Shown here piece after piece: positions 17,430-31,104 of a stretch of DNA of 34,178 nucleotides (its first letter is position 1; each line of letters starts with the position of its first letter). Source of the DNA: Polyangiaceae bacterium (GTDB taxonomy: Bacteria > Myxococcota_A > Polyangia > Polyangiales > Polyangiaceae). The stretch is taken from contig JALHPN010000088.1 of the NCBI GenBank assembly GCA_022842465.1, positions 1 to 34,178 of the forward strand. Direction: 5' to 3'. The position numbers were made by a program, and so were the translations under genes. The notes under the pieces were generated by a model that had not been told where the DNA came from, searched no databases, and saw nothing but the letters and a program-made list of their open reading frames with translations.

Positions 17430-18533
17430 TCAGCGCGGCACGTACTCGAAGACGAGCGAGCTCGACGCTGGGTCGAACCACGCGCGCTCGAACGTTTGGA
17501 TGCCGCTCCACGTCGCGTGGTTCTTCTTCGCCGTCTGCTCGGCGAGCGCCGAGAGCGCCTTCTGGAGGGCGGTCCGCGACGTCGCCTTCTCGAGGCCGTT
17601 CTTCACGTGCTTCTGGACGTTGTTCCGGATGATCTGATCGACGTCGACGAACACCGTGAGGAAGCCGTCGGGGATGTTGTTCAGGTTCCGGTCGAACGTG
17701 AACGCGGCGATCACCGAGCCGAACCCGAGCTGCGTCTTGTCCGCCGTGGGGGCGATGCCGGTCAGCTTCGCGTTCACCTTCATGTTCGAGAGCTCGAGGT
17801 CGGGGCAACCGAGGTACGAGGTCCAGTGGCGGCAGGGCAACGTGGGGCCGTTGCTCTCGAGCTCGAGGGTCAGGCTCGCGGTAGGCAGGCCTGCTTCCGT
17901 CGTCCAGCCGGCGTCGATCGTCCCCGGTCCGATCGTCGAGCGCACGTAGTTGATGTCGACGGTGATCCCGCCGGGCCCGAACGTGTCCCGGTCGATCGGC
18001 GCGATGTCGAACGTGTGGTCCTTCGCGCCGTACGACTCGGCGAGCGGACCGAAGTCGATGTAGCTGTGCTTCGGCCCCGTGGTCCAGTTGCACTCCTTCA
18101 CGTTCGGGTAGTCCTCGTTCATCTGCTGCAGGCACTGGAAGCGCGCGCTCCCTGCCATCGCGTAGCACTCGGCCTGCATCGCCTCCCGCGCCGCTTGGTT
18201 CGGATACGAGCAGTGGTAGAAGGGCTCGCTCGGGATCGACGGCGACGTCTTCGTCGTGTCGACGACGAGGCGTGAGCCCCCGAGGACGAGGAGGAGCGCG
18301 GCGTAGAGCTCGTCGCTCGAGATGCGAGCCTGCCAGGTGTTCGGGGTCGGATCGAGCACCCCGCCGCCGACGATGACGGGCGAGAAGACGCCGCCGGTGA
18401 GCTTGCTCGCCGCGAGCGTGAAGGGCGCCTCGGCCTCCCCGACCGGAGGCTCGAGCCCGTCCGCCGGCGGTGCGGCGCACGCGGCGAGGAGGAGGACGGA
18501 GACGACGAGAGAGGCCTTCGAGAGGGTCTTCAT
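17430..18533 (-). CDS. Lipoprotein of unknown function, CAAP type
   Basis: This lipoprotein of 367 residues has its signal at the start (KASLVVSVLLLAAC, Cys19) followed by CAAP and an acidic patch. The mature part shows long amphipathic beta strands (about 125-260, with ITVDINYVRSTIGPG and LTLELESNGP), then 'MKVNAKLTGIAP...LGFGSVIAAFTFDR' and a helical end. Alternating strands with a closing helix weakly recall lipid-binding TULIP-type folds; I would not assign it. At least six Cys outside the lipobox could form disulphides. It is divergent from the 18730 operon, and the shared 196-base region carries a paired-GC element with outward -24/-12 motifs. A predicted -24/-12 start would leave only about six bases of leader. 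Confidence 0.75.
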   Translation of the reverse strand: MKTLSKASLVVSVLLLAACAAPPADGLEPPVGEAEAPFTLAASKLTGGVFSPVIVGGGVLDPTPNTWQARISSDELYAALLLVLGGSRLVVDTTKTSPSIPSEPFYHCSYPNQAAREAMQAECYAMAGSARFQCLQQMNEDYPNVKECNWTTGPKHSYIDFGPLAESYGAKDHTFDIAPIDRDTFGPGGITVDINYVRSTIGPGTIDAGWTTEAGLPTASLTLELESNGPTLPCRHWTSYLGCPDLELSNMKVNAKLTGIAPTADKTQLGFGSVIAAFTFDRNLNNIPDGFLTVFVDVDQIIRNNVQKHVKNGLEKATSRTALQKALSALAEQTAKKNHATWSGIQTFERAWFDPASSSLVFEYVPR

Positions 18534-18550
18534 GATGGAGGCCGCCGCGA

Positions 18551-18565
18551 GCAACCGACGTGCCT
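18551..18565 (-). promoter_or_regulatory. Candidate sigma-54-type -24/-12 promoter (minus)
   Basis: GGCACGTCGGTTGC (minus strand, 18564 to 18551) matches the sigma-54 consensus at all fixed bases except the first T. It drives the lipoprotein starting at 18533. The predicted start near 18539 leaves a leader of about six bases, unusually short. The element is 44 bases from the GC-tract element at 18609-18643. Confidence 0.55.
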
Positions 18566-18608
18566 CCTCGGGAGGGGCCCGTTCGTCCCGGCTCCGGTGA
18601 GGCGTCCG

Positions 18609-18643
18609 GCGCGCGCGCTCGGCGCGGGACCGCGCGCGCGCGC
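18609..18643. promoter_or_regulatory. Paired alternating-GC element, copy 1 (candidate upstream activating site)
   Basis: A ten-base alternating GC tract (18609-18618), a 12-base spacer (18619-18630) and a 13-base alternating tract (18631-18643). It lies midway between divergent -24/-12 elements, 44 bases from the minus one and 43 from the plus one, a position expected for a shared activator site. Alternating GC tracts can also adopt Z-DNA or pair as a cruciform. Confidence 0.55.
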
Positions 18644-18685
18644 ACGTCGACACGGAGATGCGGGGGATCGGAGGCGCTCCGGAGC

Positions 18686-18700
18686 TGGTCCGCGGCTTGC
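18686..18700 (+). promoter_or_regulatory. Candidate sigma-54-type -24/-12 promoter (plus, weaker match)
   Basis: TGGTCCGCGGCTTGC has exact GG-N10-GC spacing and a perfect TTGC, but CAC is replaced by TCC. The predicted start is near 18712, just ahead of the GGAGG at 18717-18721 and the ATG at 18730. It would drive the operon 18730-23578. Confidence 0.45.
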
Positions 18701-18729
18701 CGAGTGGCGCCGCCATGGAGGCACATCCC

Positions 18730-19086
18730 ATGAACTCGCTCGTCGATCTCGCCAAGAACCTCGGTCTCGCCGGCTTCCTCGGCGTCTCGCTCTTCGCCTG
18801 CGCGATGCCATCGGAGGGCGGCGGGGAAGGGGAGGCCGACACCTCCGCCGAGGAAGAAGCTGCCGCGCAGACGGACGAAGCCGCGTCGGAGCTGCGCAAG
18901 AGCGGAGGCGGCACCATCGGCGAGGGCGACTCCTGCGGTGGCACGTCGTGCTCGTCGGAGGACGGCAACCAGAGCTGCTCGTGCAGCACCGGCGAGCGCT
19001 GCGTGCGGAACATCACGCGCTGCTGGTGCGAAGCCGCGACCCGACTCTGCGGCTTCGGCAGCAGCGGCGGCTTCATCCTCCGTTGA
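18730..19086 (+). CDS. Small Cys-rich lipoprotein
   Basis: The product is 118 residues. The signal ends in GVSLFAC (Cys24), giving a mature N-end CAMP followed by a Glu/Ala-rich acidic linker to about residue 60. The C-terminal 50 residues hold ten cysteines (CGGTSC, then SCSCS, then CVRNITRCWCEAATRLC), probably a disulphide knot. The start is chosen because GGAGG lies eight bases upstream and the lipoprotein signal begins here; an in-frame ATG further up has neither. It is first gene of a likely four-gene operon (18730, 19109, 20331, 22190; gaps 22, 22 and 26 bases). No recognisable family; a surface or envelope-bound small protein is the best description. Confidence 0.8.
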   Translation: MNSLVDLAKNLGLAGFLGVSLFACAMPSEGGGEGEADTSAEEEAAAQTDEAASELRKSGGGTIGEGDSCGGTSCSSEDGNQSCSCSTGERCVRNITRCWCEAATRLCGFGSSGGFILR

Positions 19087-19108
19087 TCGGACCAGGAAGG
19101 AAACGACC

Positions 19109-20308
19109 ATGAAGAAGCTCGCCGTCTCGCCGCTCGCGCTCGCGCTCCTCCTCGTCCCTGGTGCGGCCTCCGCCCAGCTCACGAAGGCGGGGACGTTCAC
19201 CACCACCACCACCACCAAGACCGGCACGATCGCGCCGGCGGAGGAGGTCGTCGACCTCGGTCTCTACGACGCCTCGACCACCACCCACACCGCCTACGCG
19301 ATCACCAAGAACGTCCCGACGTACGCGTATACGGGAGACCTCCTCCTCGATCCGGGGACGACCCCGACCGGCCCCTCGTCGGCCTGCCCCGCGCCGACGG
19401 CGACGTACGACTGGGACAAGGTCTTCAGCAAGGCGGACGAGTGGGGCAACGGCACCTTCGGCGCCGGGTACTGGGCGGGCCTCACCTTCTCGAGCCGCGC
19501 CGGGCGTGCCGGGGGGGCCGACACCTTCCGCGGCGAGGCGATGGCCCGCGCGTACGCCACGGTCTTCGGCAGCGACAAGGAGGTCACGCGGATCACGGGC
19601 ACCGGACAGCTCGTGGGGACGCAGGGCACCTCGAGCTACGCCGTCCGCGTGCTCGGCGTCACCGTGCGCTCGCGCTCGGTCTCGGGCAACCTCACCGAGA
19701 GCGCGCCGATCTACAACGCCACCTTCTTCTCGCAGTCGAAGACGATCTGGCTCGGTCCGGTCCCGGTCAAGTTCACCGGCGCGGTGAAGGGCACGCTCGG
19801 CGTCGACCTCGAGGCCTCCTACGCGACGAGCACCCTCTTCGCGAAGGCCAAGCCGATCGCGAAGGTCTACGCACAGGCGAGCGCGGGCGTCGACATGTGG
19901 CTCGCGAGCGCCGGCGTGAGCGGCACCCTCACCCTCGTCGAGGCGTCCGTCCCGTCGCAGGCGACCGCCGTGGTCTCCCCCACCAACGTGACGTTCGCGG
20001 TCCACAGCGACCTCGTCCTCGCGTCCCTCTCTGGCAAGGTCGAGGCCTACGCGACGCTGCCCGGGAAGCGCTGGACGATGACGCTCGCAAAGTGGGACCC
20101 GCTCTTCCGGGGCACCTACCCCATCATCCACGCGACCGCCTGCACGAACCCGATCGTCCGCCCCGTCTGCGGGGACAACGTCTGTCAGTCGGGGGAGACG
20201 TCCACGAACTGCTCACGTGACTGCGGCGCGCCCCCGCCCGACGACACGTCGGATCCGGACGTGCCGATCTACTGCATGGCGAAGCCGTGGATGTGCCAGG
20301 ACCTCTGA
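19109..20308 (+). CDS. Secreted beta-rich protein with C-terminal CGDNxC motif
   Basis: The 399-residue protein has a typical signal peptide (LLLVPGAASA). A Thr-rich start is followed by a mostly beta-predicted body with long stretches of alternating polar/hydrophobic residues. The C-terminal 60 residues contain CGDNVCQSGETSTNCSRDC, a short Cys-rich repeat common in exported myxobacterial proteins. I recognise no catalytic motif. AGGAAGGAAACG upstream provides the ribosome site; the leader resembles that of the next gene (both have GACC-ATGAAGA). The surrounding genes suggest it partners with the vitellogenin-like protein downstream. Confidence 0.78.
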   Translation: MKKLAVSPLALALLLVPGAASAQLTKAGTFTTTTTTKTGTIAPAEEVVDLGLYDASTTTHTAYAITKNVPTYAYTGDLLLDPGTTPTGPSSACPAPTATYDWDKVFSKADEWGNGTFGAGYWAGLTFSSRAGRAGGADTFRGEAMARAYATVFGSDKEVTRITGTGQLVGTQGTSSYAVRVLGVTVRSRSVSGNLTESAPIYNATFFSQSKTIWLGPVPVKFTGAVKGTLGVDLEASYATSTLFAKAKPIAKVYAQASAGVDMWLASAGVSGTLTLVEASVPSQATAVVSPTNVTFAVHSDLVLASLSGKVEAYATLPGKRWTMTLAKWDPLFRGTYPIIHATACTNPIVRPVCGDNVCQSGETSTNCSRDCGAPPPDDTSDPDVPIYCMAKPWMCQDL

Positions 20309-20330
20309 GCCTTCGATCAGGAACACGACC

Positions 20331-22163
20331 ATGAAGACCCCGACCTTCTCGCGCGCCTCACGCCTGGGCGCGCTCTCCCTCCTCGTGCTCGCGCTGGGCG
20401 CGGGCGGCGCCTCGCTCCTCACGCCGAAGCACGCCGAGACGTCCTCGTCCGGCGGTGAGTCGGGAGGCACGGGCGCGATCGGCAGGAGCGCGACGCCGTC
20501 GCGTCTCGACCGCGCGAGGGGGCCGGGGCTCCGTCGGACCTACACGACGAAGCTCGAGCAGCACGTCGCGCTGACGAGCGGCACCTCCTCCGGCTCGGAC
20601 GCGACCGTGAAGATCCTCCTCACGGGACGGCTCGATCTGGCCTTCGTCGGTCACGACGGAGGCAAGCACCGCCTCTTCGCCGAGCTCGCCGACGTGCGCC
20701 TCGCGATCGGGAGCGGCGCGCCCCCCGCGGAGGCCGCGGCCGTCGAGCAGGAGCTCGCGCGACCCTTCTACGTCGTCACGGAGGCCGACGGCCGGGTGCG
20801 CGGCTACGCGTTCGCGAAGGGCGTCTCGCCGATGGCCCAGAACCTCCTCCGGGGCGTCCTCGCGAGCGGGCAAGTGTCGGTACGGGACGAGGCGTCGTGG
20901 ACGGCGCAGGAGGACGACGTCCAGGGCACGTACACGGCGACGTACACGAAGGGCGAGGCAGGAGCGCTCGTGAAGACGAAGGCCGCCCCGAACGGCGCCG
21001 ACGGCATGGGCAAGCGGGAGCTGCGCGCGCGCGGCGTCGCGACGATCGCCGACGACGGCTGGCCGAGGACGCTCGTGTTCGACGAGCACCAGGTCGTCGC
21101 GATGGGAAAGGACATGCCCGTCGCGACCACCGACCTGCACCTCACGATGACGCTCGAGGGCACGCGGCAGGACCTCGCGCTCCTCGGTCGCTACGAGCAG
21201 GAGCTCGGCGACCTCGTCGTCGCAGGGACGACGGGGACGGCGGACGACGGCGAGTCGTCACGGATCGCCGACGCGCGGCTCGTCGGGGGGGCGACGGCGA
21301 CCGAGCTCCTTGCCGACGCGCGGCGCGCGACGGACGACGCTGCGGCGATCGCGGCGGGAGACAAGCTCGCGGCGCGCCTTCGCCTGACGCCCGAGGACGC
21401 GGCCTCCGTCGCCGCGATGGCGAAGACGCTGCCGGTGCGCGAAGGCAACGTCGCCCTCGGCGCCCTCGGCGGCGCGGCGACGAAGGAGGCGACGAAGGCG
21501 CTCGGCCAGCTCGTGGTCGACGCGAAGGCGACGCCCGCCCTCCGCGCGAACGCGGCCACGCAGCTCGCCTTCGCGACGGGCTCGAACGCGGTCGAGGCCC
21601 GGGAGGCGCTCTCGCAGGGGCTCTCCGATCCTTCGCGCGAGGTCCGCGACAGCTCGGCGCTCGCTCTCGGCAACGTGGCCCGCGAGCTCGGCGACGCGGA
21701 CGGCGACACCGTCCAGGACCTCCTCCGGCGCTACGGCGCGGCGCGGGACGACGAGGAGCGCGCGATGCTCCTCCACGCGCTCGGCAACAGCGGGAGCGCG
21801 GACATCCTGCCCGTCGTGCGCCTCGCGCTCGGGAGCGAGAGCGAGGCGGTCCGGGAGGCCGCTGCGCAGGCGCTCCGCTTCTTGCCGGTCGGAGAGGCGG
21901 ACGCGGTGCTCGGACGTGTCCTCGGCCAGGAGCCGTCGCAGACGGTGGTGGTCTCCGCGATCGACGCGATCGGGTTCCGGATCGTCGAGATGCACGCCAA
22001 GGGGCTCGACCGCGCGATCGGGGCGGACACGTCGGGACGCGTCCGCGGCGCCGTCGCCGAGATCGTCCAGCGCGCGCTCTCGACCCGCAAGGACACGCTC
22101 TCGGCGGAGGCGCGCGCGATCCTGCAGGCGCTCCTCGCGCGGGCCCGGACGGAGGCGAACTGA
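20331..22163 (+). CDS. Vitellogenin/MTP N-terminal-like (large lipid transfer type) HEAT-repeat protein
   Basis: The 610-residue exported protein begins with a signal/anchor (LGALSLLVLALGAGGAS). At about 65-270 it has features of the N-terminal beta-barrel of the vitellogenin/microsomal triglyceride transfer family. These are YTTKLEQHVAL, ILLTGRLDLAFVG, LARPFYVVTEADGRVRGYAF, MAQNLLRGVLASG, then DDVQGTYTATYTKGE, all in the family order. A helical HEAT-like half (about 350-610) follows, with SDPSREVRDSSALALGNVA and ALGSESEAVREAAAQALRFL. In animals this fold binds lipid; the bacterial role is unknown and this assignment rests on my pattern reading. It is third in the 18730 operon. Confidence 0.65.
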   Translation: MKTPTFSRASRLGALSLLVLALGAGGASLLTPKHAETSSSGGESGGTGAIGRSATPSRLDRARGPGLRRTYTTKLEQHVALTSGTSSGSDATVKILLTGRLDLAFVGHDGGKHRLFAELADVRLAIGSGAPPAEAAAVEQELARPFYVVTEADGRVRGYAFAKGVSPMAQNLLRGVLASGQVSVRDEASWTAQEDDVQGTYTATYTKGEAGALVKTKAAPNGADGMGKRELRARGVATIADDGWPRTLVFDEHQVVAMGKDMPVATTDLHLTMTLEGTRQDLALLGRYEQELGDLVVAGTTGTADDGESSRIADARLVGGATATELLADARRATDDAAAIAAGDKLAARLRLTPEDAASVAAMAKTLPVREGNVALGALGGAATKEATKALGQLVVDAKATPALRANAATQLAFATGSNAVEAREALSQGLSDPSREVRDSSALALGNVARELGDADGDTVQDLLRRYGAARDDEERAMLLHALGNSGSADILPVVRLALGSESEAVREAAAQALRFLPVGEADAVLGRVLGQEPSQTVVVSAIDAIGFRIVEMHAKGLDRAIGADTSGRVRGAVAEIVQRALSTRKDTLSAEARAILQALLARARTEAN

Positions 22164-22189
22164 GACGCGGCGTCTGGTATCGTCGGCGG

Positions 22190-23578
22190 GTGGTGTTCGA
22201 GACGACCATCGACGGTCCCGCGCGCAAGAAGGCGGACGACGACGACGACGTGGCACGGCTCTGCTTCGTCGTGGTCTGGGCGAGCGAGGATCGCGACCGC
22301 GTCGGCGAGGTGCTGTTCCCCGAAGAGGGGAGCGTGTTCGGCCGCGGACCCGTGGAGGACGATGGAGAGCGGCGCGTCGGCCTCCTCCGGCAGGAGCCCG
22401 AGAAGAACGCTCGCGCCGCGGCTCTCGAGAGCCCGTACCTGTCGCGGAGGGCGCTCGCCTTCGCGGAGACGAGCGACGCGATCGACATCGAGGCGCTCGG
22501 CAAGAAGGGGCTCCGGCTGGGGGACGCCGAGATGCGGTCGGCCACGATCCGCGAGGGTGACGTCTTCGAGATCGACGGTCTCTACGCCTTCTACTGCACG
22601 CGCCGGCCGACCTTCCTGCCGGAGGCCCACGGCGTCTCGCGGAAGCGCTTCGGGCACGCGGACGAGCACGGCATCGTCGGCGAGAGCCCGTCGGCGTGGG
22701 GCCTCCGCGCGTCGGTCGCGTTCTTCGCGAAGCGCAACGCGCACGTCCTCGTGACCGGGCCGAGCGGGACGGGCAAGGAGCTCGTGGCGCAGGCGATCCA
22801 CCGCCTCTCCACGCGGGGGAAGAAGGAGCTCGTCTCGCGCAACGCCGCGACCTTCCCGAGCGGGCTCATCGACGCGGAGCTCTTCGGCAACCTCGCGAAC
22901 TACCCCAACGCGGGCATGCCGGAGCGGCCGGGCATCATCGGCCAGGCCGACGGATCGACCCTCTTCCTCGACGAGATCGGCGAGCTGCCGGCCGATCTCC
23001 AGGCTCATCTCCTCCGTGTCCTCGACAGCGGGGAGTACCAGCGCCTCGGAGACTCGCGCCGGCGGATCGCCGATTTTCGGCTCGTCGCGGCCACCAATCG
23101 CTCGGTCGAGGATCTCAAGGAGGACGTCGCCGCGCGCCTCGGCTTGCGCGTCCACCTCCCCGGGCTCGACGAGCGCCGCGAGGACATCCCTCTCCTCGCG
23201 CGCCACCTCCTCCTCCGCGCCGCCGCCCGCGATCCCCAGATGAAGGAGCGCTTCTTCGAGGGGGACGAGCCGCGCCTCGATGCTGATCTCGTGCGCGCGC
23301 TCGTGCTCCACGAGTACGGGACCCACGTCCGCGAGCTCGAAGGTCTCCTCTGGAAGTCGGCCGCGACCAGCAGGGCCGACCGGCTCGAGCTCACGAAGGA
23401 CGTGGCGAAGCTCATCAAGACGACCGTTCGGGCAGCCCCGCGGGAGCTCGCAGCCGAGGACATCCGCGGCGCCCTCGCGAAGCACGCGGGCGTGAAGGAC
23501 AAGGCCTGGCGCGAGCTGGGGCTCCCCAGCCGGCACGCGCTCCACCGCCTCATGAAGAAGATGAACATCCCGGAGTGA
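22190..23578 (+). CDS. FHA-domain AAA+ transcriptional regulator with degenerate GAFTGA loop
   Basis: The regulator has 462 residues. An FHA domain spans about 30-137 (VFGRG, then SPYLSRRA), which reads phosphothreonine. The sigma-54-activator AAA+ core spans about 165-400: Walker A TGPSGTGKE (about 190-197), Walker B LFLDEIGELP (258-267), and RLGLRVHLPGLDERREDI. A Fis-type HTH (about 424-460) ends the protein. The loop that normally reads GAFTGA is NYPNAG (237-242), with the spacing to Walker B unchanged. The start could be GTG at 22190 or 22193. It is the last gene of the 18730 operon, 26 bases after the vitellogenin-like gene. The next gene cluster encodes a Ser/Thr kinase, a natural FHA partner. 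The target promoters are not known. Confidence 0.9.
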   Translation: MVFETTIDGPARKKADDDDDVARLCFVVVWASEDRDRVGEVLFPEEGSVFGRGPVEDDGERRVGLLRQEPEKNARAAALESPYLSRRALAFAETSDAIDIEALGKKGLRLGDAEMRSATIREGDVFEIDGLYAFYCTRRPTFLPEAHGVSRKRFGHADEHGIVGESPSAWGLRASVAFFAKRNAHVLVTGPSGTGKELVAQAIHRLSTRGKKELVSRNAATFPSGLIDAELFGNLANYPNAGMPERPGIIGQADGSTLFLDEIGELPADLQAHLLRVLDSGEYQRLGDSRRRIADFRLVAATNRSVEDLKEDVAARLGLRVHLPGLDERREDIPLLARHLLLRAAARDPQMKERFFEGDEPRLDADLVRALVLHEYGTHVRELEGLLWKSAATSRADRLELTKDVAKLIKTTVRAAPRELAAEDIRGALAKHAGVKDKAWRELGLPSRHALHRLMKKMNIPE

Positions 23579-23580
23579 AA

Positions 23581-23614
23581 CGCGCGCGCGCCGCGCGGTC
23601 GTGCGCGCGCGCGC
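23581..23614. promoter_or_regulatory. Paired alternating-GC element, copy 2
   Basis: A ten-base alternating GC tract (23581-23590), a 12-base spacer (23591-23602) and a 12-base tract (23603-23614). It follows the regulator stop by two bases, so a terminator-hairpin role cannot be excluded here, but the other copies lie in divergent promoter regions. It is 43 bases upstream of the -24/-12 element at 23657. Confidence 0.5.
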
Positions 23615-23656
23615 CGGCGGCGGAGGGCAACCTCGCGGGATCACGTGAGCGCGTCA

Positions 23657-23672
23657 GGGCATGACGGTTGCT
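23657..23672 (+). promoter_or_regulatory. Candidate sigma-54-type -24/-12 promoter
   Basis: GGCATGACGGTTGCT (23658-23672) with exact GG-N10-GC spacing. The predicted start near 23683 would leave a leader of about 145 bases before the ATG at 23829. The surrounding 23673-23828 holds no gene I can support. Confidence 0.5.
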
Positions 23673-23828
23673 CGTCGGCGGGTGCCGTCCCGCTCCGCGC
23701 GAGACCCTAACTTTGGGTGACATGCGCGCGGGCCGAAACGGATCGAAACTTCGTGCGCTCGGAGCCCGCCGAAGGCATGCTCCGCCCGCCGAACGCTGCC
23801 CCTCTCCACGAGCCCACGAGACACCACC

Positions 23829-24266
23829 ATGAAGCTCCAGACCTCCGTCTTCGCCGCCGCTGCCGTCGCCCTCGGAATCGTCGCATGCGCTGCGCCTGCG
23901 GAAGAGCAGGAGCGGGACGAAGAAACGGGGACCACGTCCCAGGCGCTGTGCCGCTTCCCCCCCTGCACGAAGCTCGGCGGCGGAACCTGGGGCGGGCTCG
24001 CGAGCAGCGGCACCCTCGACCCCGGCACGGGCGGTTCGAGCTCGGGCGGCTCCGGCACGGGTGAGACCTTCTCGTGCACGCCCGTCGGCAAGCGCTGCAC
24101 CGACCCTGACTACCGCCGTCTCGCCTGCAACCCGTACGACGCGAACGACTGCGTCTGCATGATCGGTTGCGGTGGCGGCGGCTGGCCGTACGGCACGTTC
24201 AACCCGTGCCCGTCCTGGTCGCCGCGCTACACCTGCAACAGCCTCGGCTCCTGCCGCTGCTACTGA
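23829..24266 (+). CDS. Small Cys-rich lipoprotein, CAAP type
   Basis: The product is 145 residues. The signal ends in LGIVAC (Cys20), with CAAP then an acidic linker and TTSQAL. A Gly/Ser-rich spacer (about 50-78) separates it from a C-terminal region with ten further Cys (including CVCMIGC, CPSWSPRYTC, CRCY at the end), consistent with disulphide bonding. The overall plan, lipobox, acidic linker and Cys knot, parallels the 18730 protein, although sequence identity is not evident by eye. It is first gene of a likely operon with 24272 and the kinase at 24729. Confidence 0.8.
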   Translation: MKLQTSVFAAAAVALGIVACAAPAEEQERDEETGTTSQALCRFPPCTKLGGGTWGGLASSGTLDPGTGGSSSGGSGTGETFSCTPVGKRCTDPDYRRLACNPYDANDCVCMIGCGGGGWPYGTFNPCPSWSPRYTCNSLGSCRCY

Positions 24267-24271
24267 GCGGA

Positions 24272-24718
24272 GTGCGCCCCGCCGCGCGTCCCTTCACCCT
24301 CGCGTGCGGCGCCGTCGTCGTCACGGCGCTCGCGGGGGCGTGCAGCGACGCGAAGGAGCGTCCGCCCGCGGCCCCTCGGGACGCCGGCGTCGACGTCTCC
24401 ACCGAGGTCGTCGTCCTCGACGCCGGCGACGTCGCGGACGCCGGAGCGCGCTGCGCGCTGCCGGCCTCGTTCGGCTCCACGAAGTGCAACGAGTGCGTCG
24501 CGACCCACTGCTGCGCGCCGCTCGCCGCGTGCGCGGCAGACGCCGCGTGTCGCGCGCTCCGCGACTGCAACCTCCCGTGTCTCGACGCGCCCGACGCGCC
24601 CGCGTGCTCGCGCGAGTGCCGCGCGAAGTACCCCGACGACGGGCGGCTCTGGTACGACATCGAGACGTGCTGGACGTTCAGCGACCCGTGCACGTTCCAC
24701 TGCGCCATCAGCCCGTGA
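24272..24718 (+). CDS. Lipoprotein with myxobacterial Cys-rich (CxxCxxxxCC) domain
   Basis: From the GTG at 24272 the product has 148 residues with its lipobox at LAGAC (Cys24). After an Asp/Ala/Val linker comes a compact disulphide-rich domain: CNECVATHCCAPLAACAADA, then CRALRDCNLPC and CSRECRAKYP. Such C-x2-C-x4-CC-x5-C repeats are frequent in exported proteins of Polyangia by my recollection. The start is five bases after the preceding stop, indicating tight coupling. A longer upstream reading would overlap the previous gene. Function unknown. Confidence 0.75.
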   Translation: MRPAARPFTLACGAVVVTALAGACSDAKERPPAAPRDAGVDVSTEVVVLDAGDVADAGARCALPASFGSTKCNECVATHCCAPLAACAADAACRALRDCNLPCLDAPDAPACSRECRAKYPDDGRLWYDIETCWTFSDPCTFHCAISP

Positions 24719-24728
24719 ACGTCGTCGG

Positions 24729-26135
24729 ATGACGAATCCCCTCGAGCTCGCGCCCGTCCTGCCGGGAGAGACCTTCGCCGGCAAGTACCGGGTCGAACGC
24801 GTGCTCGGTCACGGCGGCATGGGCATCGTCGTCGCCGCTCGCCATCTGGAGCTCGAGGAGCGCGTCGCGGTGAAGTTCCTCCTCCGGAAGGACGATCCGT
24901 CCGCGGTCGAGCGCTTCATGCGCGAGGCGCGCGCGTCCGCCAAGGTGAAGAGCGAGCACGTCTGCCGCGTGTACGACGTCGGGAGACTCGAGTCCGGCGA
25001 GCCCTACCTCGTCATGGAGTACCTCGACGGGCTCGACCTCGCGGACAAGCTCCGCGCGTCGAAGCGGCTCCGCGTCGCCGACGTCGCCGGATGGATGATC
25101 GAGGCGTGCTCCGCGCTCGCGGACGCGCACGCGCTCGGGATCGTGCATCGCGACCTCAAGCCGGCCAACGTCTTTCTCGCGCGTCGTTCGGACGAGACCG
25201 CGGTCGTGAAGGTGCTCGACTTCGGCATCTCGAAGATCGAAGGCGCGCACGGGATGACGTCGACGTCCGCCGTGATGGGCACCCCCGTGTACATGTCCCC
25301 CGAGCAAGTCGCGTCGTCGAAGGACGTCGATCACAGGACCGACATCTGGAGCCTCGGCGTCATCATGTACGAGCTCGTCTCGGGCAAGCAGCCCTTCCGC
25401 GGCGACTCGCTCATCCAGCTCAGCGTCCGGATCCGCGAGGCCGACGTCGAGCCGCTCGCGAGCGGCGAGGCAGGCTTCGACGCCGTCGTCGCGAAGTGCC
25501 TCGCGAAGGAGCCCGCCGAGCGATGGTCGAGCGTCGCCGAGCTCGCGTCTGCGCTCGCGCCCTTCGCGGGCGGGGCCTCTCGGGCGCTCGCCGTCCGGGC
25601 GGCGCGGACGCTGACGACCGCGAAGAGCGCGCTCGCGGAGACGATGCCCGACGACCGGTCTCCGTCGCGGCCCGACCCGGAGGGAGGGCAGGCGACGCTC
25701 GAGCCTCTCAGCACGGCGCGGCGCCCTTCGCTCTCGCGTCCGGCGTCTCGCTCACCGCGGCTCGCGATCCTCGGCGTCGCGGCCTTCGTGATCGGGGGGG
25801 CTGCCGTCGCGAGGCTCGCCGCGTCCGCGCCCGAGAAGGGAACGGAGACGAGGACGCTGGGCGTCGACGTGGAGGCCGAGCCTGCGCTCGCCCCGTCGTC
25901 GGCCGCCGCGAGCGCCGAGCCGCTGCCGAGGTCGCCTTCGCCTCCGAAGGCGCCTGCCGACGCTCCCGCGCCCGCCCGCCTCGTCGTCGCGAAGCCCGCC
26001 GCGGTCGCCTCCGCCGGGGTGGTCGTCGTGCCCGACGCGGCGCCTCCGCCCGCCTCGGTCACGCCTGCGGAGGCGACGAGCGTGAACGTGAGGAAGGCTC
26101 GACCGCTCGATCGCGACGACCCCTACGGCCCCTGA
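24729..26135 (+). CDS. Membrane-anchored Ser/Thr protein kinase
   Basis: The 468-residue protein has an N-terminal kinase domain at about 19-280: glycine loop VLGHGGMGIV, Lys49 in VAVKFLL, HRDLKPAN at 140-147 with catalytic Asp142, DFG at 164-166 and MSPEQ at 189-193. All key residues are intact, so it should be active. A Ser/Pro-rich linker precedes a transmembrane helix at about 343-364 and a Pro/Ala-rich extracytoplasmic tail without PASTA or other sensor domain. Thr phosphorylation would create ligands for FHA domains such as that of the 22190 regulator. It is separated from the preceding lipoprotein gene by ten bases and is likely in its operon. Its 3' end overlaps the protease gene on the other strand by 77 bases. 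Confidence 0.93.
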   Translation: MTNPLELAPVLPGETFAGKYRVERVLGHGGMGIVVAARHLELEERVAVKFLLRKDDPSAVERFMREARASAKVKSEHVCRVYDVGRLESGEPYLVMEYLDGLDLADKLRASKRLRVADVAGWMIEACSALADAHALGIVHRDLKPANVFLARRSDETAVVKVLDFGISKIEGAHGMTSTSAVMGTPVYMSPEQVASSKDVDHRTDIWSLGVIMYELVSGKQPFRGDSLIQLSVRIREADVEPLASGEAGFDAVVAKCLAKEPAERWSSVAELASALAPFAGGASRALAVRAARTLTTAKSALAETMPDDRSPSRPDPEGGQATLEPLSTARRPSLSRPASRSPRLAILGVAAFVIGGAAVARLAASAPEKGTETRTLGVDVEAEPALAPSSAAASAEPLPRSPSPPKAPADAPAPARLVVAKPAAVASAGVVVVPDAAPPPASVTPAEATSVNVRKARPLDRDDPYGP

Positions 26136-27264
26136 GCGTCGCGGCGAGCGCGGCGAGGAGGCAGAGGCCGGTCGAAGGGGACGTGCCGCCCGGCGAGGTC
26201 GTGCACCCCCGCTCCGGCGCAGGCAGGGCCGCGCGTGGCAGGCAGAGGCCCGCGTCGCAGCGGTCGGCCGCCGAGCAGCCTGCGTCGTCGACGCAGCGCG
26301 TGGTGCAGCGGAAGGAGCGCCTTTCGTCGCGTGATGCGCAGGCCGCCCGCTCCCCGCACGACGGATCGTCCTCGCCGCGACACAGCTCGCCGGGGCGTGG
26401 GGAAGGAGGGAAGAGGTCGGTCGCCCAGGCTGGAGCGGGCGCTTCCGTCGTGGCCGCGTCGAGGACCGTGCGCGCGATGAGCCAGGCCCAGAGGTCCGTC
26501 CGCTCGAAGACGCCGAGCGTGCAGGAGGTGCCGAGGGCGCCGAGGTCCCCCCGCGAGAGCACCCCGAAGACGACGTCGCGATCGGACGCGCGGAGGGCAC
26601 CGCCGCCCGAGTCGCCGCGGCAGGGGCCGCTGCCGCTCGTGATCTCCCGCTCGCTCGTGAAGTCTTCGTCGCCGTCGCAGCGGAAGCCGGGCCGTCCGCG
26701 GACGCAGCGGATCGGGATGTCGAAGCGGCTCCGCCTCGTCCCGAGATCCGACGCGCGGGGATCGGTCACGCCGAACGCGGCGAGGCCGAGCACGCGTTCG
26801 TCGACGGCGCGCATCAGCTCCGCCTCGTCCGTCACGGGCCTCGCGGGCGTCGCCTCCGAAGGCGCGGCGGGCTCGGCCAGGACGAGGAGGGCGATGTCGT
26901 CGCCGCAGAGCGACGTCGACTCCGGGACCCGCACGTCACGGACCTTCTTCCAGTTCGCCCCGTCGCCGCTCCACGGCGACAGGTTCGCCCAGACGTCGTC
27001 GATCTCGGCGGGGAGCGGGCCGAGCGTGGCGTCGCACGCGCGCGCGCCGGGGACGACGGACGTGAAGCAGTGGCGGACCCCGAGGACGACGTTGGTGCTG
27101 ACGAGGGTGCCGGAGCAGACCACCGCGCGTGCGCCCGGCGAGCCGCGCGCGATGGCGACGGCGTGGGTCGTCACCCGGTCCTCCTGACCGCCCTGGACGG
27201 CGACGGCGGCGCGGGTCGCGAGCGCGATCGAGGTGGCGAGGGCGACGGCGACCCACGCCTTCAC
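26059..27264 (-). CDS. Trypsin-like (S1) serine protease with MYXO-CTERM-like tail
   Basis: The product is 401 residues from GTG 27264, with a signal peptide (ALATSIALATRAAVA). The S1 chymotrypsin fold shows His in LGVRHCF, Asp in CGDDIALLVL and Ser in PCRGDSGGGAL, a complete triad. The C-terminal half has Cys-rich linker segments. The end has a Gly-Cys motif (ERGCTTSPGG), a short hydrophobic stretch and an Arg cluster, the MYXO-CTERM sorting-tail pattern, but 17 further residues follow. The start overlaps the stop of the upstream gene (GTGA at 27261-27264). It is the last gene of a four-gene operon. Secreted and probably surface-retained protease. Confidence 0.88.
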   Translation of the reverse strand: MKAWVAVALATSIALATRAAVAVQGGQEDRVTTHAVAIARGSPGARAVVCSGTLVSTNVVLGVRHCFTSVVPGARACDATLGPLPAEIDDVWANLSPWSGDGANWKKVRDVRVPESTSLCGDDIALLVLAEPAAPSEATPARPVTDEAELMRAVDERVLGLAAFGVTDPRASDLGTRRSRFDIPIRCVRGRPGFRCDGDEDFTSEREITSGSGPCRGDSGGGALRASDRDVVFGVLSRGDLGALGTSCTLGVFERTDLWAWLIARTVLDAATTEAPAPAWATDLFPPSPRPGELCRGEDDPSCGERAACASRDERRSFRCTTRCVDDAGCSAADRCDAGLCLPRAALPAPERGCTTSPGGTSPSTGLCLLAALAATLRGRRGRRDRAVEPSSRSRSSPPQA

Positions 27265-28889
27265 GGCGGGCACACGAAGGACCCGGTCGTCTGCTTGGTC
27301 GCGGCGGACCAGCGCACGGTCGGCACGTTTCGGAGAACGATGGTCCCGTCGGGCTCCTTCCCGAAGCAGAAGAGGCCCATGTCGCTCGCGATCTCGCCGG
27401 TCGCGGTGTTCCAGTCGAGATCGGTGTAGATGCCACGGATGTCGATGGGGCCGTTCCGGAGCGCGCTGATCGCCGTGTTCAGCGCGGGGCCCGGGCCGAG
27501 ATCGAACGTCGGCCCGCTCACGAGGCTCGGAAAGCCGGCCGAGATCGTCGGCCCGTCGAGCAGCGGCTGTCCGGTGCGCGCGGCGATCGCGAGGGCGAGG
27601 GCGTAGAGCGCCTCGTATCCGCTCGAGTTGCCGTTCGCCGCCTCCTTGTAGCTCGCTCTGTAGCTCGACTCGTAGCGCGCGAGGTTCTGCCGTCGCGCGT
27701 CGGTGAGGAAGGGGTGGGTCCCCGAGACTCGCGCCCGGAGCGCGTCATCGGCGAGGACCTGTTGGAACGGAGCCGCGTCGTAGGAGATCTGCGTGAGGAC
27801 GTAGTAGGGGCGCGGCGCGGACGGCGCGAGCGCGCCCTCGATGCGCGACAGGTGGTAGGTCGGGAAATCGGAGGCCATCGCCGCGATGACGATGTGGGGC
27901 GCGAACGCGGCGATCTGGCTCGCGGTCCCGTCGTAGTCGACGAAGTCCGTGCGCGGATCGGGCGTGCGAATCGGGAGATAGCGGGCGCCGTTCCCGAGGA
28001 CGTCGACCCCGTTGAAGGCGAGGACCTTGGGAAGCTCGTCGAGGAAGTGCCTCTGCGCGGGCGCACCGTCCACGAGGACCGCGACGCGGATGTCGCCCGG
28101 CGTCTGGGCCTTGATCTGCGCCTCGAGCTCGAGGACGCGGGACGAAACCAGGGCCGCGTCGCCCGCGAGAGGCGGCAGGATCCGCCAGACGCGAGCGTCG
28201 GGCGGGATCGGCGCGAGGCAGTCGGAGCAGACGACGGCGGTCTTCTTCTCGGCAGCGAGGGCTGCGACGTTCGCCATGTCCTCGTCCCAGCCTACGATGA
28301 CGGCGGAGGCGCCGACCACGTCCGTCAGGTGCGTGAACATCGCCTTCGCCTCGTCCGGGTCCCCCCGTGAGTCGCAGTGCAGGACGGCGATGGGACGCCC
28401 GGAGGTGCCGCCGACGAAGAAGCCCTGCGGCGCGCCGGTGTCGATCTCCTCCGAGGCGAGGTCGATGGCGCGGAGGAGGCGCTTGCTGTAGGGGCTCTCG
28501 ATCGAGCCGAGCTTCTGCTTCAAGTGCAGGGGGAGGAGCGAGCCGACGACGATCGCGTTCGGGTCACGCCACTTCCCCGTGATCGCCGGGCATCCGTCGA
28601 TCTGCCACGGGACGCAACCGCTCCCCGCGCGCTTGCACACGGACGCCCGCCCGCTGTTCGCCTGGGTGCAGACGTCGGTGCTCGTGCACGACGCGCCGGC
28701 TTCGTCGCTCACGGTCTGCGGCCGGAGCGCGCAGAAGCCCTGATCGCAGATGCGCCCCGAGAGCGCCGGACTCTCGTCGCAGTCCGCGTCGGTGGAGCAC
28801 TGGACGCGGTCTGCGGTGTTCACGAGGAACGAGCAGCCGGCCGCGACGAGCGCGGCGGCGAGGACGGCGGCACGCGCGATCGAGCTCAC
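27261..28889 (-). CDS. Lipoprotein with type-1 periplasmic-binding (Leu/Ile/Val-like) fold
   Basis: The lipoprotein has 542 residues with lipobox VAAGC (Cys19). A Cys-rich insert (about 30-95, with CSTDADC, ICDQGFC) is followed by a type-1 solute-binding domain (about 110-540). Its segments include IVVGSLLPL at the start, RRLLRAIDLASEEI-like helix (here KRLLRAIDLASEEI), AVIVGWDEDMANVAAL and a long alpha/beta region. No ABC permease or ATPase gene is adjacent, so it may act as a ligand sensor or scavenger rather than a transporter component. Position after the TPR/PEGA gene (four-base gap) and before the protease supports an operon with a LuxR regulator at its head. Confidence 0.82.
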   Translation of the reverse strand: MSSIARAAVLAAALVAAGCSFLVNTADRVQCSTDADCDESPALSGRICDQGFCALRPQTVSDEAGASCTSTDVCTQANSGRASVCKRAGSGCVPWQIDGCPAITGKWRDPNAIVVGSLLPLHLKQKLGSIESPYSKRLLRAIDLASEEIDTGAPQGFFVGGTSGRPIAVLHCDSRGDPDEAKAMFTHLTDVVGASAVIVGWDEDMANVAALAAEKKTAVVCSDCLAPIPPDARVWRILPPLAGDAALVSSRVLELEAQIKAQTPGDIRVAVLVDGAPAQRHFLDELPKVLAFNGVDVLGNGARYLPIRTPDPRTDFVDYDGTASQIAAFAPHIVIAAMASDFPTYHLSRIEGALAPSAPRPYYVLTQISYDAAPFQQVLADDALRARVSGTHPFLTDARRQNLARYESSYRASYKEAANGNSSGYEALYALALAIAARTGQPLLDGPTISAGFPSLVSGPTFDLGPGPALNTAISALRNGPIDIRGIYTDLDWNTATGEIASDMGLFCFGKEPDGTIVLRNVPTVRWSAATKQTTGSFVCPP

Positions 28890-28893
28890 CGGC

Positions 28894-29778
28894 TCACCAC
28901 GACGCGACGAACGCGGGGACGCCGGGCTTCGGCTTGCCGCGGAGGGTGAGCCAGAGAGAGATGCCGCCGGCGACGATCGCCGAGCCGATCAGGAGATCGG
29001 TCGTGAGCGCGAGCGCGTCCGCACGGTCGCCCTGCTTGTCGAGGTCGACGGCGGCCTGCTGGACGGAGCCGCTGAACGGCGCTCCGCGGCGCTCCTCGAA
29101 CGTCGAGTAGGCGTCGTTCGCCGCGATCCCCGTCACCACCGCGCCGGTGGCGAGCGCGCCCGTCACGATCCACCCGACGAGAGCGGGCGTGCCCATGCCG
29201 CGGTCGTCGACGACGACCTCGCGTCGCATGGGGACGAGCTTGACCTCGACGACGGTCTCGTCGCCCCCGGCCAGGCGCACGATGCGGGTCTGGCTCTCGT
29301 AGCCGGACTTCGTGACGACGATGCGGAGCGCGCCCGGCTCGACGGGGAGCTTCACGGCCGGCGCACGGACGACCTGATCGTTCACGAAGACGTCCGCGTC
29401 GACGACGTTCACCTGGATCGTGACGGTCGCGACACGGCCGGCGAGCGCCGTCAGATCCTTCTCCACCTCCGCGCGTCGCTCGGGCAGGATGTCCGCTCCG
29501 CCTTCGTCGAGGTAGCGGCGCAGCGCGCGCTGGGCCCGGGCGTACTCCCCGAGCTGCGCGTGGATCTGGCCGATGTTGTAGAGGAGCTTGTAGCTCGGCG
29601 CGATCTCGTAGGCGCGTTCGAGCTCGACGAGCGCGAGGCGGAAGTCCCCCTCGTCGTAGAGCTCGAGCCCGCGCTTCACGCGCGCCCGCGCGTCGTCCTC
29701 CGCGTCTGCTCGGGCGGGGAGCGCCACGGCGGAGACGGTCAAGGCGAGCGCGAGGACGAGGAGCGAGCGGGCCTTCAC
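28894..29778 (-). CDS. TPR/PEGA-domain membrane protein
   Basis: This protein of 294 residues has a signal peptide (VLALALTVSAVALPARA) and TPR-like helices (about 25-100, ALVELERAYEIAPSYKLLYN and GEYARAQRALRRYL). A PEGA-type beta domain lies at about 112-180 (VDADVFVNDQVV, GALRIVVTKSGY). Two C-terminal hydrophobic helices sit at about 195-220 and 255-275. PEGA/TPR proteins are common envelope components in myxobacteria, where they bind cell wall or proteins; the exact partner is unknown. The GTG at 29778 overlaps the LuxR stop (GTGA at 29775-29778), so translation is coupled. Confidence 0.85.
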   Translation of the reverse strand: MKARSLLVLALALTVSAVALPARADAEDDARARVKRGLELYDEGDFRLALVELERAYEIAPSYKLLYNIGQIHAQLGEYARAQRALRRYLDEGGADILPERRAEVEKDLTALAGRVATVTIQVNVVDADVFVNDQVVRAPAVKLPVEPGALRIVVTKSGYESQTRIVRLAGGDETVVEVKLVPMRREVVVDDRGMGTPALVGWIVTGALATGAVVTGIAANDAYSTFEERRGAPFSGSVQQAAVDLDKQGDRADALALTTDLLIGSAIVAGGISLWLTLRGKPKPGVPAFVASW

Positions 29779-30368
29779 CGCTTCGTCTCCGTCCACTCCA
29801 TGAGCGCGACGAGGCCCGTGCGGCTCCGGACGCCGCACGCGCGGTAGAGGGTGTGGAGGTAGATCTTCACGGTCGACTCGGACAGGCGGAGCTCCCGTGC
29901 GATCTCGCGGTTCGTGAGGCCCTGCCGCACGAGGAGCGCGAGCTGGAAGGTCCGACGCGTCAGGGCGTACCGCTCGTGGAACGCGGTGTAAAGCCGGTCG
30001 TCCCGCCGCTGCTCCTCCCGGATCCAGAGGAGGGCCGCGACGCCCGGGATCCCGTGGGCGGCGGCGACGCGGAGGTGGAGGGCGCCGCCGCCTCTCGCGA
30101 TGCGCGTCGAGACGGCCGGGACGCCCGCATCGCGCCACGCGACGAGGGCGGCGTCGAGGGGGCCATTCAGCTCCTCCCGGCCGCTGCCCCGGCGCCCGAG
30201 CAGCGCGCAGGCGCGCGGGCAGGCGAAGACGACGTCGTCCCGCTCGTCGACGGCGACGAGGCCGTCTCCCGTTCGCGCCACCACGGCGACGAGCAGGGCG
30301 CGGAGGGCACCGGCGTCGAGCCGGGGCTCGGAGGCAGAGCGCAGGCCGAGCGTCATCGGTCCGAGCAT
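29775..30368 (-). CDS. PAS-like LuxR-family regulator
   Basis: The 197-residue product has an N-terminal PAS-like domain (about 20-125, GDGLVAVDERDDVVFACPRA and ALHLRVAAAHGIPG). A C-terminal LuxR HTH (about 140-190) follows, with GLTNREIARELRLSESTVKIY and LYRACGVRSRTGLVALM. It is likely a ligand-responsive activator of its own operon. The start may be at 30368 or at the second Met (30356), because a predicted -24/-12 promoter puts the transcription start near 30370. It heads the operon that runs to 26059. Confidence 0.85.
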   Translation of the reverse strand: MLGPMTLGLRSASEPRLDAGALRALLVAVVARTGDGLVAVDERDDVVFACPRACALLGRRGSGREELNGPLDAALVAWRDAGVPAVSTRIARGGGALHLRVAAAHGIPGVAALLWIREEQRRDDRLYTAFHERYALTRRTFQLALLVRQGLTNREIARELRLSESTVKIYLHTLYRACGVRSRTGLVALMEWTETKR

Positions 30369-30381
30369 GGCGACCCTACGA

Positions 30382-30396
30382 GCATCCGCCGTGCCG
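30382..30396 (-). promoter_or_regulatory. Candidate sigma-54-type -24/-12 promoter (minus, variant)
   Basis: GGCACGGCGGATGC (minus strand, 30395 to 30382) keeps GG-N10-GC spacing, with AT in place of TT at the -12 box. The predicted start near 30370 is just ahead of the LuxR start codons. The GC element at 30436 is 40 bases upstream. Confidence 0.45.
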
Positions 30397-30435
30397 CGTC
30401 CGGGCGGCTGGTACGTCCGTGGCTCGCGGGAGACG

Positions 30436-30472
30436 GCGCGCGCGCGCGCAGCGCGAGAGGTGCGCGCGCGCG
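30436..30472. promoter_or_regulatory. Paired alternating-GC element, copy 3
   Basis: A 14-base alternating tract (30436-30449), a 12-base spacer (30450-30461) and an 11-base tract (30462-30472). It lies between the divergent LuxR and 30613 genes, 40 bases from the minus-strand -24/-12 motif and 81 bases from the plus one at 30554. Confidence 0.55.
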
Positions 30473-30552
30473 GATCGCACGGGGTGATCCCGCTTCGGGA
30501 TCCGGAGGCCCTGCCGAGCCACGACGAGCCCGGAATACTCGACGGACGACGC

Positions 30553-30568
30553 CGGCACGGCGCTCGCA
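30553..30568 (+). promoter_or_regulatory. Candidate sigma-54-type -24/-12 promoter
   Basis: GGCACGGCGCTCGC (30554-30567) has exact GG-N10-GC spacing. The predicted start near 30579 precedes the ATG at 30613 by about 34 bases, with GGAGAA at 30602-30607 as ribosome site. Confidence 0.5.
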
Positions 30569-30612
30569 GGTCCTCTTCCCAGGAACCTCTCACCGCCTCT
30601 CGGAGAACCGCC

Positions 30613-31104
30613 ATGAAGTCCCGTCGTCGTCTCGTCTCGCTCCTCCCCTTCGCCGCCTCGCTCGTGGCGCTCGCGCTCGTCGCCTGTGCGGCGCCCGTCG
30701 ACGAGGAGGCCGGGGACCAGGGCGCGGCCCAGAGCTCTCGAGAGACGTCACGCGAGGCGGGGGCCCCCACGCCCTCGAAGCCGGCCGCGGAGCTCATCGC
30801 GCTCGGCAAGTACGTGGATCCTTCCAAGGGCGTCCTTCTCGTCCGGGGCCGCGCGTCGGAGGACAACCTGCTCGCGAACCAGAGCGGGCTCGCCGTCGCC
30901 TACGGAACCCTCGGCGATGACGGTCGAACCCTCCGGACGCCGGAAGGCGACGTCTGCGGGGCGTACACGCTGAGCCAGGTCCCAGGTCGCTTGACGGTCG
31001 ACGTCCTCTGGCAGGCCGAGGGCTCGGTCGCGCGCGATCCCGAGATCGCGAAGGGCTGCATGGAGCTCGAGGGCACCTACGAGATGACCGAGTCCGGGGA
31101 GTGA
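30613..31104 (+). CDS. Lipoprotein of unknown function, CAAP type
   Basis: The product is 163 residues. The signal ends in ALVAC (Cys25) with CAAP and an acidic linker (VDEEAGDQGA). The mature domain of about 110 residues is mixed alpha/beta, with a lone Cys pair (GDVCGAY and KGCMELEG) that may form one disulphide. No named family. The promoter region shares the paired GC element with the divergent LuxR gene. The next lipoprotein starts 72 bases downstream and may be separately transcribed. Confidence 0.78.
   Translation: MKSRRRLVSLLPFAASLVALALVACAAPVDEEAGDQGAAQSSRETSREAGAPTPSKPAAELIALGKYVDPSKGVLLVRGRASEDNLLANQSGLAVAYGTLGDDGRTLRTPEGDVCGAYTLSQVPGRLTVDVLWQAEGSVARDPEIAKGCMELEGTYEMTESGE

Follow-up and report, generated by a model that had tools for sequence, protein, structure and literature searches.

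NtrC-type upstream activating sequences are repeated sites upstream of a -24/-12 promoter, and systems that combine sigma-54, an FHA domain and a kinase are of a kind known in outline. FHA-type enhancer-binding proteins of Myxococcus xanthus were reportedly described by Jelsbak, Givskov and Kaiser in 2005. We analysed a 34,178-nucleotide stretch of DNA from a Polyangiaceae bacterium (GenBank assembly GCA_022842465.1, contig JALHPN010000088.1), hereafter the window, whose genome comprises 9.57 Mb in 431 contigs and is about 72% GC. Five predicted transcription units of the window share a sigma-54-like -24/-12 site and an alternating-GC doublet, and one of them encodes a regulator, 22190, with FHA-like, AAA+ and helix-turn-helix (HTH) regions. 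Like an NtrC-type upstream activating sequence, the doublet places a repeated site ahead of a -24/-12 promoter, but its half-sites are bare (GC)4-8 runs and a short, nearly constant distance separates it from the promoter. To go by what is said of the M. xanthus FHA-type proteins, the 22190 family resembles them in its FHA-like, AAA+ and HTH layout, its proposed Ser/Thr kinase input to sigma-54 and its myxobacterial setting, and differs from them in that its FHA region is divergent, GAFTGA is absent from 40/40 proteins, and a candidate enhancer and lipoprotein regulon were identified. What is new here is that the loop lacks GAFTGA, that the candidate enhancer consists of alternating GC and that the proposed regulon comprises lipoprotein genes. 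Two papers report sigma-54-independent action for the GAFTGA-less relatives TyrR, DhaR, HupR and the NtrC proteins of Rhodobacter and Caulobacter (PMC3162934, PMC10274813); these have the same kind of AAA+ domain as the 22190 family, and GAFTGA is absent in both. In the NtrC proteins of Rhodobacter and Caulobacter the loop is deleted, whereas in the 22190 family it is of unchanged length, contains a conserved YPN core and goes with -24/-12-like promoters.

The best model, which we judge fairly probable from sequence comparison, is a sigma-54 regulon of surface lipoprotein genes, with this region as its core, that is coupled to a kinase, controls itself and is run by an activator without GAFTGA. 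The 22190 protein, with its divergent FHA region, AAA+ domain and Fis-like HTH, would bind a doublet whose (GC)4-8 arms lie about two helical turns apart and which usually stops 39-45 bp short of a -24/-12 promoter. The protein would thereby drive lipoprotein genes, its own gene, the gene of a membrane Ser/Thr kinase and a unit encoding a LuxR regulator, a ligand-binding protein and a protease. The kinase would probably control 22190 by way of a contact between phosphothreonine and the FHA region, which would make the switch reinforce itself. The model is supported by the shared promoter architecture, its conservation and its recurrence before lipoprotein genes at other places in the genome of a relative, and likewise by the co-occurrence of the element with one regulator clade and its recognition helix and by kinase-regulator linkage across the family. 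We infer that 22190 binds directly, that sigma-54 is used, that the effect is activation and not repression, that the ATPase works via the YPN-type loop and that the kinase relay operates.

The -24/-12 sites were scored against the consensus TGGCACGN4TTGC (11 scored positions), with a cut-off of 9/11 or better. Five units, whose boundaries were drawn from strand and spacing, were recognised as ordered open frames (Table 1): lp17430 (-); lp18730-s19109-vit20331-FHA22190 (+), which is close-packed; lp23829-lp24272-STK24729 (+); LuxR29775-TPR28894-PBP27261-tryp26059 (-); and the single-gene unit lp30613 (+). An earlier note on this DNA had claimed for all five a -24/-12-like motif and a GC element at set distances, and this was borne out. 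Every unit has a site scoring 9 or 10/11, which by sequence matches the -24/-12 consensus of a sigma-54 promoter, and one doublet, consisting of two alternating-GC runs about 10-13 bp apart, lies in each of three intergenic regions. The doublet-to-site distances are 43, 42, 42 and 39 bp, and 81 bp at lp30613. Six of the seven window sites at 9/11 or better sit in the three intergenic regions, which span 688 bases or about 2% of the window. When these regions were shuffled with dinucleotides preserved, the mean was 0.136 sites, and six were reached in 0 of 2000 shuffles; across the whole window there was no excess (7 sites observed against 5.5 in 10 shuffles). The observation of a shared promoter architecture was confirmed and is larger than earlier described. 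Neither the replacement of GAFTGA nor the element before lipoprotein genes elsewhere had been mentioned in the earlier note. The regulator and the kinase lie inside the controlled units, as the earlier note had placed them. An additional 9/11 site, not among the five named earlier, sits beyond doublet 3 (30409-30423, +).

Conservation of gene order and of both motifs in related genomes, which the earlier note had proposed as a check, was found. Below, G000 denotes the window's genome, other G-numbers denote genomes of relatives and L-numbers denote fetched loci. Most of the block is kept in G007 and G004, where nine window genes matched in order (lp17430, lp18730, the regulator, lp23829, lp24272, the kinase, the trypsin, PBP and TPR genes); s19109, vit20331 and lp30613 were unmatched in both loci. 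The LuxR gene is represented only by a fragment in G004 (L041 6258-6383), between the lipoprotein and TPR genes, and had no match in the G007 locus (L039 9240-9530). By eye, the frames of the LuxR region look decayed in both. Part of the block is kept in G002 (regulator, lp24272, kinase, PBP and TPR genes), and the G010 contig stops 885 bases past the regulator. The doublet and site are kept in G007, G004, G002 and G010 while the neighbouring DNA diverged, and G002 has two sites at 11/11, one of them 45 bp from a doublet. Five loci picked solely by the regulator gene (the window, L039, L041, L042 and L043) hold 13 sites at 9/11 or better no further than 150 bp from a doublet, and for 12 of these the distance is 39-45 bp.

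The exact doublet pattern, (GC)5-N8-18-(GC)5, was searched across the 9.57-Mb genome and found at six distinct places. Three are in the window, two precede lipoprotein genes (C57 and C43, the C43 site being without the last consensus C), and the sixth (C61) appears by inspection to lie inside a coding sequence. A looser composite pattern (spacing 38-54) was then applied to 38 genomes, and its matches were fetched and counted by one rule. The doublet-clade set consisted of five of these genomes together with G087 and G092; 18 other genomes with matches served as controls, and the remaining 15/38 had none. The seven clade genomes held 59 composite places, 22 with a site at 9/11 or better, and 15 of the 22 precede a called lipoprotein. 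The other seven comprise three sites before LuxR genes, two before lp23829 homologues that the rule missed, one before a 777-aa secreted protein, and L101. Among 66 control places there were three such sites, four lipoprotein calls and none with both (site and lipoprotein jointly, clade genomes versus controls, Fisher p = 4e-6). Within the window's genus, composite sites at 9/11 or better precede lipoproteins in 5/5 genomes with a close regulator orthologue and in 0/7 without one; among the latter, G005 (72% complete) has one such site with no called lipoprotein after it.

Six sites at 9/11 or better in G010 precede lipoproteins off the regulator's contig (L110, L113, L115, L119, L120 and L121). 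Since the G010 contigs are unordered, adjacency to the regulator's contig is conceivable for one or two of them but unlikely for all six. Pfam identified a trypsin-like protein at L115, an FG-GAP protein at L119 and a subtilase at L120. The window trypsin had no meaningful similarity to the G010 protease. The L121 lipoprotein is 47% identical to lp17430 and keeps the same element. G087 and G092, which were fetched only as relatives with a regulator of 55% identity, each carry a LuxR gene that is preceded by the doublet and a site, 42 and 43 bp apart.

The 22190 protein (P0001) has the AAA+ domain of sigma-54 activators (PF00158, E 2e-40), which was matched in 15/15 family members, and Walker A and Walker B are conserved in the family. 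HTH_8 was called in 9/15 members and not in P0001, and the aligned C-termini share an HTH pattern. At the loop, 22190 has NYPNAG. A YPN or YPH core occurs at the same place and length in 39/40 family proteins inspected, and L276 has NYTHSG. Other AAA+ activators in 93 fetched loci had GAFTGA-like loops in 78/78 cases, as read by one pattern that would miss other loop lengths. A contig scan for named relatives kept 80 loci of at least 588 stretches, all at 30-46% identity; this identity lies mainly over the AAA+ domain, so the scan gave no named family member and served the loop comparison alone. At E 1e-65 the regulator family was found in 22 of 282 genomes across the phylum. A second family regulator of the window's genome, L055 (G000:C293:7936-9279), has a YPN loop and lies at a contig end.

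The canonical FHA phosphothreonine-binding set consists of Arg, Ser, His and Asn-Gly. R52 (in Gly-Arg) and S85 are invariant in 15/15 members of the family, and the His and Asn-Gly-Thr of the canonical pattern are not kept. Profile comparison with ten canonical domains gave an hhalign probability of 96% (E 2.9e-9 for one comparison, 61 columns). These ten were kept from 20 fetched, the others being without a clean frame; three wrongly framed rows were dropped, and with them the probability was 89%. The FHA-like region also weakly matches GarA chains (E 0.18 and above). Profile comparison supports a divergent FHA domain in 22190, and the Pfam call is weak.

In a tree of 39 family proteins, all seven users of the doublet fell in one clade (support 100/98). 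The HTH of 7/7 doublet users contains SRHALHRLMKK, which occurs in 0/33 others (32 tree rows and L276, which stood outside the tree and was inspected separately). A different protein with the same distribution may bind the doublet instead. A second, specialised sigma-54 was not found: rpoN was a single gene per genome in 19/19 genomes searched, a set that did not include G087 and G092. Among ten non-GC paralogue promoters, dyads were better than in shuffles (p of 0.05 or below) in two, and a 10/11-bp repeat signal was significant in one. Post hoc, the strongest self-match fell at lags of 20-23 in seven of the ten (L044, L049, L058, L275, L278, L284 and L290). The L291 promoter has a clear 10-bp tandem repeat. 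Such repeats may mark paralogue-specific enhancers.

The window kinase, which the earlier note had called active-looking, carries the HRDLKPAN, DFG and SPE motifs together with a Pkinase domain (PF00069), and its single hydrophobic stretch is, by inspection, probably membrane-spanning. A kinase-like gene, in varied orientation, lies within 2 kb of 22/39 family regulator genes and within 5 kb of 25/39, although several contigs in this count end early. The number expected within 2 kb was 2.4 from the 154 kinase matches in the window's genome, 4.3 from 280 first-look candidates, or about 5.3 from 11 matches in 309 kb of other fetched DNA. The window pair, at a distance of 1.15 kb, is an extra case beyond the 22/39. 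This linkage supports a working pair rather than any particular route of phosphorylation. A kinase-to-FHA relay is plausible.

Several observations weigh against a regulon driven by 22190 at sigma-54 promoters. No inspected family member has GAFTGA. PF00498 (FHA) had no match in P0001 at E 1 and was weak in 2/15 family members (best E 0.017), and the gene is not among the 93 FHA matches of its genome. The interpretation given in the earlier note is thus partly supported; its FHA regulator is backed by profile similarity and not by Pfam recognition, and would only putatively read phosphothreonine. The 81-bp spacing at lp30613 is a misfit, 15 of 28 doublet sides in the five regulator loci lack a site at 9/11 or better within 150 bp, and the orthologous promoters of G000, G004 and G007 do not count as independent cases. 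Beyond the block, the collecting pattern itself fixed the spacing of distant sites, and L101 (G007) is a 9/11 site without an explained gene. The control genomes do hold three sites at 9/11 or better (L147, L304 and L320), and the lipoprotein rule fires on 4/66 of their places. G087 and G092 were first listed as controls and were moved after the element appeared; each has one composite site at 9/11 or better, in neither case before a lipoprotein.

These points give room to other explanations. 22190 could bind the doublet as an antagonist or repressor while another, GAFTGA-bearing activator opens the promoters; the two proteins might share a site, use overlapping ones or form a mixed ring. Two papers take the loss of GAFTGA as a sign that a protein has ceased to drive sigma-54 (PMC3162934, PMC10274813), and the genome holds many other such AAA+ proteins (43 scored matches of 158 candidates). 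Against an antagonist, the doublet is placed where an activator site could be, at a nearly fixed spacing, and the replaced loop keeps its length and its YPN/YPH core, which suggests a retained contact. No second AAA+ activator was found among the block's other genes, a distant one not having been searched for. We consider an antagonist unlikely, though the likeliest of the rivals. Considerably less probable is action of the regulator at housekeeping promoters that do not use sigma-54, as reported at sigma-70 promoters for the GAFTGA-less NtrC proteins of Rhodobacter and Caulobacter (PMC10274813). The consensus A and T are kept in a 72% GC genome (A5 in 25/27 and T13 in 26/27 collected sites, which were largely chosen by score), and sites are conserved at matching positions amid diverged flanks, up to the two 11/11 sites of G002. 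The promoter evidence points to sigma-54 use despite the loss of the loop motif and is compatible with either an activator or an antagonist.

Two further readings dispense with the AAA+ protein. The LuxR protein (29775) could bind the shared sites, as its gene lies inside the block and has the element in G000, G087 and G092. The elements persist in the G004 locus, with its LuxR fragment, and in the G007 locus, with none, and no LuxR match was found in the G010 or G002 loci, whole genomes not having been searched for LuxR. Because the elements outlast an intact LuxR match, we judged this binder very unlikely. The GC doublets could also be structural or terminator-like hairpins, or a genome-wide effect of composition, unrelated to promoters; they are inverted repeats, doublet 2 starts four bases past the regulator's stop codon, and a reversed control pattern matched as often as the doublet pattern (11 matches per strand against 8), which overlap of the same GC runs may explain. 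The near-fixed spacing, the doublet between two promoters, the conservation, the presence at distant lipoprotein genes and the scarcity of the combined features among 18 control genomes make such an artefact equally hard to credit.

The favoured reading, of 22190 as a GAFTGA-less sigma-54 activator, may extend further. Tentatively, and at somewhat less than even confidence, there may be a phylum-wide class of AAA+ activators in which a conserved YPN-type loop stands in for GAFTGA at true sigma-54 promoters, coupled to adjoining Ser/Thr kinases and to paralogue-specific enhancers of about two helical turns, each running its own lipoprotein regulon. If such a class exists, GAFTGA could no longer be taken as the rule for recognising sigma-54 activators. 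GAFTGA serves as a filter for naming these proteins (PMC3162934), and annotation of that kind would miss a functional family that lacks it. Among the matches listed, at the level of titles and abstract openings and mostly outside subscription papers, no description of the present system was found, and among literature pairing two of GAFTGA, FHA domain and myxobacteria, none included GAFTGA. The recognisable enhancer, near-fixed spacing and defined gene set make the GAFTGA question directly testable. The family also offers candidate wiring from particular kinases to particular surface proteins in kinase-rich bacteria such as this one, with its 154 kinase matches.

Table 1 Genes, sigma-54-like -24/-12 sites and GC doublets of the window.
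Feature	Coordinates	Strand	Sequence and score	Description
lp17430	17430..18533	-		lipoprotein, 367 aa; controlled unit
lp18730	18730..19086	+		small Cys-rich lipoprotein; heads the regulator's unit
s19109	19109..20308	+		secreted protein outside recognised families
vit20331	20331..22163	+		secreted Vitellogenin_N/HEAT-repeat protein (Pfam); regulator's unit
FHA22190	22190..23578	+		FHA-like/AAA+/HTH regulator, NYPNAG replacing GAFTGA; proposed doublet binder
lp23829	23829..24266	+		Cys-rich lipoprotein
lp24272	24272..24718	+		Cys-rich lipoprotein
STK24729	24729..26135	+		Ser/Thr kinase, Pkinase E 3e-48
tryp26059	26059..27264	-		trypsin-like protease (Pfam); closes the LuxR unit
PBP27261	27261..28889	-		Peripla_BP_6 ligand-binding lipoprotein (Pfam)
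TPR28894	28894..29772	-		exported protein, TPR-like by inspection of sequence
LuxR29775	29775..30368	-		LuxR-type regulator, GerE HTH (Pfam)
lp30613	30613..31104	+		lipoprotein, 163 aa
Site of lp17430	18551-18565	-	AGGCACGTCGGTTGC; 10/11	identical 15 bases in G007 and G004
Site of lp18730-FHA22190 unit	18686-18700	+	TGGTCCGCGGCTTGC; 9/11	
Site of lp23829-kinase unit	23657-23671	+	GGGCATGACGGTTGC; 9/11	
Site of LuxR unit	30382-30396	-	CGGCACGGCGGATGC; 9/11	
Site of lp30613	30553-30567	+	CGGCACGGCGCTCGC; 9/11	atypical spacing
GC doublet 1	18609-18643			between two divergent promoters (43 and 42 bp)
GC doublet 2	23582-23614			
GC doublet 3	about 30436-30471			39 bp to LuxR site, 81 bp to lp30613 site

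The Pfam assignments of Table 1 agree with the LuxR regulator, ligand-binding lipoprotein and protease that had been read from the sequence earlier. The s19109 protein weakly matches a secreted protein adjoining a G010 element. The vit20331 protein is a bacterial relative of a lipid-carrier domain, and its gene was either gained in the window's lineage or lost in G007 and G004.

The leader of the lp23829 unit is 157 nt long (23672-23828) and measures 160 nt in G007 and G004 (L039 and L041). It is much longer than the other leaders, and a regulatory leader is possible. The predicted start codon lies 12-17 nt below the -12 box in 12/25 measured promoters. Similarly placed GTG codons, 12 and 13 nt below the box, occur in L272 and L273. 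With starts that are putative, this short distance suggests that messages may be nearly leaderless. The string CCAAAGTTAG occurs near a GC doublet in the window (23708, -), in L272 (11233, -) and in L273 (8322, +), the latter two from G087 and G092, and is possibly the site of a second regulator.

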